28,317 nucleotides of DNA from a bacterium (GTDB taxonomy: Bacteria > B130-G9), in NCBI GenBank assembly GCA_021160245.1, contig JAGHCW010000138.1:1-28317 (forward strand), given 5' to 3'. The notes under the pieces were generated by a model. It worked only from the letters and a program-made list of their open reading frames with translations, searched no databases and had not been told where the DNA came from. Position numbers and translations under genes: made by a program. Position 1 is the first letter of the stretch; every line of letters begins with the position of its first letter. Below are positions 3,274-25,249 of this stretch, piece after piece.

Positions 3274-3372
3274 CTAGTAGTGTTTATCTAGGTTCTGCTG
3301 TGCGGGGATAGGTACAGGAATCCATGATACAGCTAGTGATGTCTCGCCGGATTCCGATAGTATTCAAGAACC

Positions 3373-3388
3373 GCGGAATTAATTCCGC
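3373..3388. promoter_or_regulatory. 16-bp perfect palindrome GCGGAATTAATTCCGC
   Basis: This 16-bp sequence equals its own reverse complement and is followed on the plus strand by CTTTT. It lies about 170 bp after clpC and 36 bp before the GTG of the next gene. It can be read as a short-stem terminator for clpC (weak U-tract) or as an operator for the downstream cluster. The sequence alone does not decide. Confidence 0.45.
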
Positions 3389-3424
3389 CTTTTGGTGAGT
3401 TCTTGATTCAGGAAGGGGCTCTGC

Positions 3425-4078
3425 GTGAATAATATAGAAATCAAGGCAAAGCAGTTCAGCGTGAGGATAGACGGGAAGTTCAATCCTGCGATCCTCAACC
3501 ACGACTTTCTCGTGAAGATTAACGCTATCCCGCATGATACAGGGCTGCCGGAGTCCACAGTTATTCCAGTTATGGCCTCCCTTGATTACAGCAAGCTGGG
3601 CGTCAGAGTCGTAGTGGATTTAGAGCATTTTCAAGTGTCTCAAGAAGATGATTCCGAGCCTGGAGTGGCAATCAGATTAGCGAAGTCCTATATAGGAAGG
3701 CTTGGGGATACACCTGTCGAACGACTTCTGTTCAATTTCTGTGGTGATGTAGTATTCAGGGAGACAGCAAGCGTCGCTGATTTCGAGGCTTGGTTATTGA
3801 GAGACAAAGCGTCGCTGATTTCGAATCTTGGCGCAACTAAGTTATCCGTAATGGTGCAATTGCGATATGATTTCGATGAATTCACCGCGACTACGAGAAT
3901 GGGACCTATCGACCCAGAACATGAGAGCATGAATTTCCTCTCTTGCTATGAGAAGAACCTTTCGAAAGCGCAAGATGTCGTTTCGTTGCTTGACAGCGAA
4001 TCGATTGTCTCAAGAATAATGAAGGCCCCTAGTTCGCAGCTTAGAGATTTCTGCATGGGAAGGGAAGCGCGTGAATAG
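3425..4078 (+). CDS. Uncharacterised protein, first gene of retropepsin cluster
   Basis: 217 residues from a GTG start with AAGGGG 6 nt upstream. There is no signal peptide or membrane segment, so it is probably cytoplasmic. I do not recognise the family. The N-terminal part (about 10-110) alternates beta-strand-like segments (FSVRIDGKFNPAILNHDF, VRVVVDLEHFQV) and ends in PVERLLFNFCGDVVF; the C-terminal third is polar and helical. Its last 8 nt overlap the next gene, which indicates translational coupling. An internal DNA duplication (see separate entry) is read in two frames, so the middle of the protein may have been remodelled or damaged. By eye the cluster looks less G+C-rich than its neighbours. 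Function unknown. Confidence 0.75.
   Translation: MNNIEIKAKQFSVRIDGKFNPAILNHDFLVKINAIPHDTGLPESTVIPVMASLDYSKLGVRVVVDLEHFQVSQEDDSEPGVAIRLAKSYIGRLGDTPVERLLFNFCGDVVFRETASVADFEAWLLRDKASLISNLGATKLSVMVQLRYDFDEFTATTRMGPIDPEHESMNFLSCYEKNLSKAQDVVSLLDSESIVSRIMKAPSSQLRDFCMGREARE
3761..3831 (+). repeat. Imperfect tandem duplication inside the unknown gene
   Basis: AGCGTCGCTGATTTCGA plus a further 7 nt occurs at 3770-3793 and again at 3808-3831; the 24-nt copies differ at two positions. Both copies are preceded by GAGACA. The 38-bp offset is not a multiple of three, so the copies are translated in different frames: SVADFEAW in the first, ASLISNLG in the second. In the frame of the first copy, the second copy would soon meet TAA. 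Confidence 0.75.
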
Positions 4079-4709
4079 AACAGACTGCTCATTATCTACT
4101 GAAATCGATCCGGTGGTTTCGTCTTTTCCTAGCAAGCACTCTCTGGAAGCACAGATTGGCCGCTTCTTTGCATCACATCCATTAGGACATCCACAACCAT
4201 CAGGTCACAACACGTTGATCTATGCCCTCGCATTGGCGAACAACAGACAGCAGTTTGCATTGAATCGCAAGCCAGATCTCTGGGCCGAAAAAGATGTCCG
4301 CAAATACTTCTCTTCCGGGGACAAGAGGGTGGGAGCTCTGGATTGGCCCATGCCGGGCGAAACTGGCGCCGTTCACAAGTGTGGCTCCCTACATGAAGAG
4401 CAATTAATGCGGGATCATGCAGCTGTTGAGGAGAAGCCGAAGCGCCACCGCCTTCCACCTGTTTCGGAAGACAAGAGCATACAAGCGTACAAGAGACTGT
4501 TGCCGGCACTTCTTAGGGATCACGAATCTGAATTCGTGGCGTTTGCTGAAGGCGAGTTAATTGGGACTAATCCCGATCGCGAGGAACTACGCAAACTTGC
4601 CCGCTGCCTGCATCCCGGCAAATCGATTCTCATAACGAGAATTCAAAAACAACGTCGCGCGGTTCGCATATTAAGCCCTAGACGAGGCCTTTCCAGGGCA
4701 TCTGCCTGA
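4071..4709 (+). CDS. Uncharacterised protein with DUF5678-like C-terminal domain
   Basis: 212 residues from GTG 4071, overlapping the previous gene by 8 nt, with GAAGGGA about 5-10 nt upstream. Residues about 138-192 (LLPALLRDHESEFVAFAEGE, then ELRKLA and ILITRIQ) match the pattern I know as DUF5678: a small alpha/beta domain with 'VA..dGe' and a closing beta-strand. DUF5678 is often encoded next to retropepsin-like proteases, as here. The first 130 residues are unrecognised and of odd composition. Translation might instead begin at ATG 4407, giving a DUF5678-only protein of about 100 residues. The stop overlaps the next ATG (TGATG). Role unknown; an accessory to the protease is inference. 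Confidence 0.65.
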   Translation: MNRTDCSLSTEIDPVVSSFPSKHSLEAQIGRFFASHPLGHPQPSGHNTLIYALALANNRQQFALNRKPDLWAEKDVRKYFSSGDKRVGALDWPMPGETGAVHKCGSLHEEQLMRDHAAVEEKPKRHRLPPVSEDKSIQAYKRLLPALLRDHESEFVAFAEGELIGTNPDREELRKLARCLHPGKSILITRIQKQRRAVRILSPRRGLSRASA

Positions 4710-5089
4710 TGCAATTCGGATACCATCATGATCATGAGCCTGCCGCCCCCGTTGCAAGCGTCGAATTCTCCAATCCGCTGACGGGCGAATCGGTAGAGGT
4801 ATTCTGTTGCATTGATACAGGCGCGAACGTGTGTTGTCTTCCGATTTCTATCATTGAGGACCTGGGTGAAACGGAATTCGACTTTCAACTACTGGAGGGT
4901 GTGGGTGCGGAGGCCTCTGATGCCCGTTTTCATACCTTGGATGTTGGATTCTGCGGCAGAACTGTGCGCGATCTTCAAGTTGGCGAGCTCCCCGAGCATG
5001 GGTGCCAAAACCCTCTCCTCGGCCGGGACGTCCTCAACCAGTTTGTTGTGACGCTAAACGGCCCGGAGCTCGTCTGCGAAATCCAATAG
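4709..5089 (+). CDS. Retropepsin-like (clan AA) aspartic protease
   Basis: 126 residues, the size of a single-lobe retropepsin that must dimerise to form the active site. Residues 33-44 hold the catalytic motif CIDTGANVCCLP with Asp36-Thr37-Gly38. Residues 103-118 hold the second hallmark, hydrophobic-hydrophobic-Gly followed by a strand (LLGRDVLNQFVVTLNG). No signal peptide or membrane anchor is present, so it is predicted to be cytoplasmic, unlike membrane-anchored PerP/SpoIIGA-type relatives. The ATG overlaps the upstream stop codon, so it should be translationally coupled to the DUF5678 gene. Substrates are unknown. Five cysteines flank or lie near the active site, which is unusual for so small a protein. 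Confidence 0.85.
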   Translation: MQFGYHHDHEPAAPVASVEFSNPLTGESVEVFCCIDTGANVCCLPISIIEDLGETEFDFQLLEGVGAEASDARFHTLDVGFCGRTVRDLQVGELPEHGCQNPLLGRDVLNQFVVTLNGPELVCEIQ

Positions 5090-5103
5090 ACGCATTTAGG
5101 CAG

Positions 5104-5134
5104 TTCTAATGAGGCTTTCCCGCCTCGTCAGAAC
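5104..5134. terminator. Bidirectional hairpin between convergent genes
   Basis: GTTCTAATGAGGC pairs with GCCTCGTCAGAAC around a TTTCC loop, with one mismatch and one G-U pair. It sits between the retropepsin stop (5089) and the convergent porin gene, overlapping the porin stop codon. There is no U-tract on either side, so termination by this hairpin is inferred from position and stem strength. Confidence 0.6.
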
Positions 5135-25233: not shown

Positions 25234-25249
25234 TGTTTCACGTGAAACA
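25234..25249. promoter_or_regulatory. parS: parS centromere site TGTTTCACGTGAAACA
   Basis: A perfect 16-bp palindrome matching the bacterial parS consensus (TGTTNCACGTGAAACA). It lies immediately after the rsmG stop codon and about 250 bp before parA; one further base pair on each side also matches. ParB loads here as a CTP-dependent clamp and spreads, and ParA then moves the nucleoprotein complex. I saw no second copy in the window. Confidence 0.95.

Follow-up and report, generated by a model that had tools for sequence, protein, structure and literature searches.

The three genes ORF1, ORF2 and ORF3 found at positions 3425–5089 of the window (the whole analysed stretch of 28,317 bp; accession no. 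JAGHCW010000138.1) are best explained as a tripartite toxin-antitoxin (TA)-like module, which resembles the SecB-dependent TAC systems but does without SecB and carries a soluble retropepsin-type aspartic protease in the effector position. We put the probability of this explanation at about 0.5. Toxicity of the retropepsin and a chaperone role of ORF1 are parts of it that we infer.

All three genes were found on the forward strand as tightly coupled, intact reading frames, i.e., ORF1 (3425–4078, 217 aa) and ORF2 (4071–4709, 212 aa), both with predicted GTG starts, and ORF3 (4709–5089, 126 aa) with an ATG start. Reading of the sequence confirmed the positions and overlaps of the original prediction (8 nt between ORF1 and ORF2; 1 nt, TGATG, between ORF2 and ORF3). 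A purine-rich, ribosome-binding-like sequence, AGGAAGGGG (3410–3418, + strand), was read directly in front of the ORF1 GTG. The perfect 16-nt palindrome GCGGAATTAATTCCGC (3373–3388), located 36 nt upstream of ORF1, could be a candidate operator or the end of an upstream transcript; the probability of finding it by chance in the 220-nt gap was 0.004, and the whole window contains three perfect 16-nt palindromes. It is enclosed by a second inverted repeat (CAAGAAC ... GTTCTTG, 3364–3404). Downstream of ORF3, the strong hairpin that had been predicted was found to be present (5103–5134, + strand; −18.2 kcal/mol, z −2.3, with 6 out of 200 shuffled sequences folding equally well), but it overlaps a convergent porin gene at its end, has no T-tract and was not scored as a terminator. 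Elsewhere in the window, at 25234–25249, the perfect palindrome TGTTTCACGTGAAACA was observed, which equals parS, the canonical binding sequence of ParB; this identity suggests a location of the window close to the replication origin.

Sequence comparisons confirmed the prediction of ORF3 as a soluble retropepsin (Pfam PF00077/MEROPS A2). It scored 20.7 bits against PF00077, exactly at the cut-off of 20.7, and 30.2 bits against TIGR03698 (clan_AA_DTGF), under the curated cut-off of 57.35. The catalytic motif Asp36-Thr37-Gly38 (4814–4822, + strand), read from the sequence, is embedded in CCIDTGAN as a D-T/S-G motif in a hydrophobic strand, and its DTG was invariant in the alignment of relatives. 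The LLGRD motif (residues 103–107; 5015–5029, + strand) corresponds to the retropepsin C-terminal hydrophobic-Gly-Arg signature and aligns with VIGRN of HIV-1 protease, which was the sole and weak match (E 0.33) in a single-sequence PDB search, aligned via these two motifs. A profile of six ORF3 relatives matched the FIV, RSV and HTLV proteases and Rickettsia ApRick in the PDB. An AlphaFold monomer of ORF3, based on an alignment of six sequences, was of very low confidence (pLDDT 37). The earlier view that a soluble retropepsin with DTG is unusual in bacteria did not hold, since TIGR03698 matches were present in 32 of 290 sampled genomes and RimB is a known example (PMC11957791); soluble bacterial retropepsins are thus not rare. 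A role of the window proteins as known defence proteins was rejected, as the PADLOC search gave weak matches only for ORF3, namely to a generic 'protease' model and to PDC-M08B/M52B (E 0.012–0.023). As a lead, the retropepsin of locus L003 in genome G049 matched PDC-M08B and PDC-M52B at E 0.0073 and 0.0007, respectively.

The predicted recurrence of retropepsin-DUF5678 pairs was borne out far above chance. Among the 290 genomes, five DUF5678 matches had a same-strand retropepsin directly downstream (G004, G042, G049, G066, and G140) compared to 0.006 expected, assuming random placement and rounded genome sizes. Five of the six ORF3 relatives from genome contigs were preceded by a short DUF5678-like gene overlapping them by 11–14 nt, L073 and L075 among them being near-identical; the sixth lies close to a contig end and showed no gene in front of it. 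In a second retropepsin subtype (IDTGF/IDTEF), the upstream partner has 84–90 residues and was likewise DUF5678-like (93%). Such pairs were found in Chloroflexota, Omnitrophota, cyanobacteria and others, mostly without a third gene, and many sampled soluble retropepsins had no DUF5678-type partner. In L050 (G001:C1:14192-14485), from the same family as the window genome, the gene immediately before the retropepsin encodes a HicB-type antitoxin (PF15919). In L073 and L075, the DUF5678-retropepsin pair adjoins HicA- and HicB-like genes; these are the near-identical loci, from Omnitrophota and Desantisbacteria assemblies that may represent a binning error or shared contigs. Classification of DUF5678 itself as HicB-like was unsupported (8% in a profile comparison).

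ORF2 was predicted to be DUF5678-like, and this was upheld at a level below Pfam detection. No Pfam match was obtained at E≤1, the gathering score of DUF5678 (PF18929) was not reached, and NCBIfam gave nothing of note; a Pfam profile scan of the window's own genome likewise gave no DUF5678 match. By hhalign comparison with 26 DUF5678 segments from other genomes, ORF2 residues 147–192 (4509–4646, + strand; 46 columns) were DUF5678-like at 90% (E 1.6e-6), compared to at most 1.3% for five shuffles. We propose that this domain is an antitoxin or partner domain and that ORF2 is an antitoxin-like protein. Relatives of the N-terminal extension (residues 1–146; 4071–4508, + strand) were undetectable in Pfam, NCBIfam and sequence searches. 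As in the DUF5678-retropepsin pairs elsewhere, ORF2 is located directly upstream of, and overlaps, a soluble retropepsin gene, whereas those pairs lack an ORF1-family gene and their DUF5678 partner is usually only 62–109 aa. In L003, the DUF5678 protein preceding the retropepsin has an N-terminal region of 330 residues of unrecognised kind, which may stand in for ORF1 functionally as a fused part; no ORF1-family gene was found in G049.

The 217-residue ORF1 had been described as an unrecognised partner. This holds in that neither ORF1 nor its family matched any model in Pfam, NCBIfam or PADLOC, a few weak, partial database matches of the family being disregarded. ORF1 is no orphan, as weak matches in cyanobacteria led to a family whose HMM (62 members, window sequence left out) scored ORF1 at 30 bits (E 6e-8), whereas the top score among 5000 shuffled sequences was 5.4. 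Judged from these scores, ORF1 is a clear member of an undescribed family that is common in cyanobacteria and is not peculiar to retropepsins. Of 386 cyanobacterial genomes sampled, 65 carry a family gene. Members also occur on about 20 plasmids of cyanobacteria and, besides the window genome, in 3 of 289 other sampled genomes. ORF1 is divergent (18–22% identity to the family) and was the sole member detected in its own genome. The earliest weak match, in L005, was rejected as a membrane protein frame. SecB was rejected as an identity of ORF1, the hhalign probability of the family being 0.1% against a SecB alignment of two sequences only (E. coli SecB, identical to PDB 5jtl, was used). AlphaFold of ORF1 alone gave very low confidence (pLDDT 32). 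The alignments used for fold prediction left out loci taken from genome-wide searches and from annotated records.

Each of the three genes was single-copy in its own genome, and none of them was found in a search of three genomes of the same family. Their GC3 was 0.50–0.58 compared to 0.65–0.69 in four neighbouring genes. The original suggestion of a small mobile module is weakly supported by this lower GC3, by the absence from the three same-family genomes and by the presence of relatives on plasmids, but neither transposase nor repeat evidence for mobility of the three genes was found. Viral, phage or plasmid origin of the trio was rejected after searches of viral contigs, plasmids and phages: ORF1, ORF2 and the ORF3 profile had no matches in viral contigs, ORF3 had none in plasmids or phages, and ORF1 and ORF2 gave chance-level matches only in plasmids. 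The lower GC3 together with the divergence of ORF1 could also indicate a decaying remnant of transferred genes on which selection has been lost; we consider this very improbable, as the three frames, their overlaps, the DTG and LLGRD motifs and the ribosome-binding-like sequence are all preserved.

ORF1-family genes recurred in two settings, directly in front of genes for giant secreted adhesins and at the head of tight three-gene operons; many others stand alone. On plasmids, the gene is often located directly upstream of a gene for a very large secreted protein, the giant neighbours being of CARDB, Ig-like and polymorphic membrane protein type. In one plasmid case two genes lie in between, and in two cases a peptidase-domain ABC transporter and a prolyl isomerase are encoded beside the ORF1-family gene. 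This position is expected of a helper for clients that are hard to fold, and suggests that the adhesin-linked ORF1-family genes encode a dedicated secretion or folding helper. In seven loci on cyanobacterial plasmids (L123, L124, L126, L127, L130, L135, and L136), a giant adhesin-like gene, in some cases >30 kb, was observed immediately downstream. On an Oscillatoria plasmid (L128), the ORF1-family gene is located downstream of polymorphic-toxin parts (AHH, Imm11, HINT).

An automatic classification, dependent on ORF calls, placed the ORF1-family gene first in a tight operon of three genes in 9 out of 92 distinct loci, window included; L141 is a looser tenth case. The third gene encodes a PIN-domain effector in G050 and G089 and an effector of the 'LLYRAI' family in five operons (four cyanobacterial loci and one Picosynechococcus plasmid, on which a type I restriction locus surrounds the module). 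In L216, genes 2 and 3 matched PDC-M32A (C-terminal part) and PDC-M32B (E 4e-4 and 2e-4, respectively) of the PDC-M32 candidate anti-phage system in PADLOC, whereas ORF2 and ORF3 of the window had no such match. In gene 2 of five related modules the N-terminus was hypervariable and the C-terminus conserved; for example, L212 and L213 showed 29% identity in the N-terminal part and 90% in the C-terminal part. ORF2, with its unmatched N-terminus and recognisable C-terminal domain, is built in the same way. Relatives of L141 gene 1 were not found in plasmids, phages or viral contigs, those of the L216 effector not in phages or viral contigs, and those of the L213 effector not in viral contigs.

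Co-occurrence in other genomes was found for the retropepsin-DUF5678 pair, but in the sampled genomes, a small fraction of those available, the exact trio was found once, in the window only. This single occurrence, and the frequent location of ORF1-family genes before giant adhesins or alone, would agree with an accidental arrangement in which function resides in the DUF5678-retropepsin pair and a gene normally serving adhesins came to lie in front of it. Such an accident seems improbable to us in view of the 8-nt overlap between ORF1 and ORF2, of gene sizes and order that match those of eight other tight family operons, and of the detection of no other family member in the genome.

A similar organization was observed for TIGR04255 ('sporadTIGR04255'), of which no mention was found in the literature searched. 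The TIGR04255 gene encodes about 250 aa and overlaps gene 2 by 1–17 nt in 12 of 18 loci examined. Recurrently in the TIGR04255 loci (L150–L169), gene 2 is antitoxin-like and is followed by a HEPN-, PIN- or PemK-like or other third gene. The HEPN-like third genes of five loci were mutually similar, and one showed a weak PDB match to HEPN proteins; the PIN and PemK labels were assigned by eye, and a PDB search gave no confirmation for the PemK-like gene. One TIGR04255 module is present in the window's own genome (L162; G000:C2:21174-21926). TIGR04255 genes have the appearance of a third TA-system component that has gone unrecognised, and they share with ORF1 a first gene that overlaps an antitoxin-like gene 2, followed by an effector gene. 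They differ in that neither ORF1 nor its relatives matched the NCBIfam model of TIGR04255 (cut-off 30 bits), profile similarity being remote only. A comparison of the two profiles scored 27.3, above all of 150 column shuffles (at most 18.3) and the reversed profile (13.2), yet with an hhalign probability of only 11%, and remote homology between ORF1 and TIGR04255 is suggested by it.

The antitoxin of a SecB-dependent TAC system carries a variable extension through which it depends on a chaperone dedicated to it; chaperone and extension can be transferred together between TA systems (PMC5105189). Like M. tuberculosis HigBA1-SecB(TA) and CmdTAC (PMC5105189; PMC11618068), the modules described here are three-gene operons with diverse toxins or candidate toxins, an antitoxin-like protein with a variable extension and a dedicated third protein from a wider family that serves other clients too. 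The hypervariable gene-2 N-termini of ORF1-family modules resemble the chaperone-addiction sequences of TAC antitoxins, which are likewise variable (PMC5105189). In contrast to TAC, ORF1 has no detectable SecB similarity, the order in the window would be helper-antitoxin-toxin, the extension is N-terminal instead of C-terminal, and the effector is a retropepsin. Since the layout of the window (helper, extended antitoxin-like protein, effector) follows the same logic as TAC, a TAC-like mechanism is proposed by analogy.

According to this proposal, the DUF5678 domain of ORF2 would bind the retropepsin and keep the protease inactive, and the extension of residues 1–146 would make ORF2 unstable or slow-folding and so dependent on ORF1 as a chaperone-like helper. 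Titration of ORF1 or loss of ORF2, caused by stress or phage, would free the retropepsin, which might then dimerise and cut a host or phage protein, so that growth would stop. The module would thereby be analogous to SecB-dependent TAC, with a helper that is unrelated or only very distantly related, and with a protease replacing the RNase.

The TA-like function that had been suggested originally is partly supported, as it fits the layout of the ORF1 relatives and of the TIGR04255 modules. ORF1-family genes were repeatedly shown to head three-gene operons whose last gene encodes a toxin-type effector, DUF5678 was shown to be a recurrent upstream partner of retropepsins, and in L050 a retropepsin takes the place behind a HicB-type antitoxin gene. 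Against it stand the single occurrence of the trio, the 83 out of 92 family loci that are not tight three-gene operons, the absence of SecB similarity, the many soluble retropepsins without a partner and the absence of an ORF1-family gene from G049. To our knowledge, DUF5678-retropepsin pairs have no established toxicity or antitoxin activity, which also counts against a TA-like function.

Other retropepsins of bacteria have been characterized. The cytoplasmic RimB, of RimABK, strips glutamates from RpsF and stimulates RimK in regulated processing (PMC11957791), and the Rickettsia protein APRc was suggested to act on surface proteins (PMC4140852). Both share with ORF3 a single retropepsin domain with a DTG-type motif and, presumably, a homodimeric form, but neither is known from a TA-like operon. 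RimB supports an alternative in which ORF3 is a protease with a regulatory, non-toxic role. A specific substrate would then be presented to it by the DUF5678 protein, acting as adaptor or regulated inhibitor (cf. RimB and its partners RimA and RimK), and ORF1 would assist folding or belong to the regulated complex; the DUF5678-retropepsin pairs without a third gene also agree with this. We regard it as possible though rather unlikely, because ORF1 relatives accompany PIN toxins and defence-candidate genes, and because the trio is single-copy and missing from genomes of the same family, unlike a conserved regulator.

In the literature search, no paper was found that ties retropepsins to TA or anti-phage systems. 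A wider generalization from the TA-like module would make the retropepsin a TA toxin, DUF5678 an antitoxin domain, and the ORF1 family and TIGR04255 a new SecB-independent class of TA-dedicated chaperones, used with many types of toxin and with secreted adhesins as well; we advance it tentatively and consider it doubtful as a whole. If the retropepsin is truly a toxin, it would be of a kind not previously known, and a retroviral-type protease would join the list of TA effectors. DUF5678 would gain a function, and the ORF1 family and TIGR04255, both uncharacterised, would be explained as general third components of TA operons.
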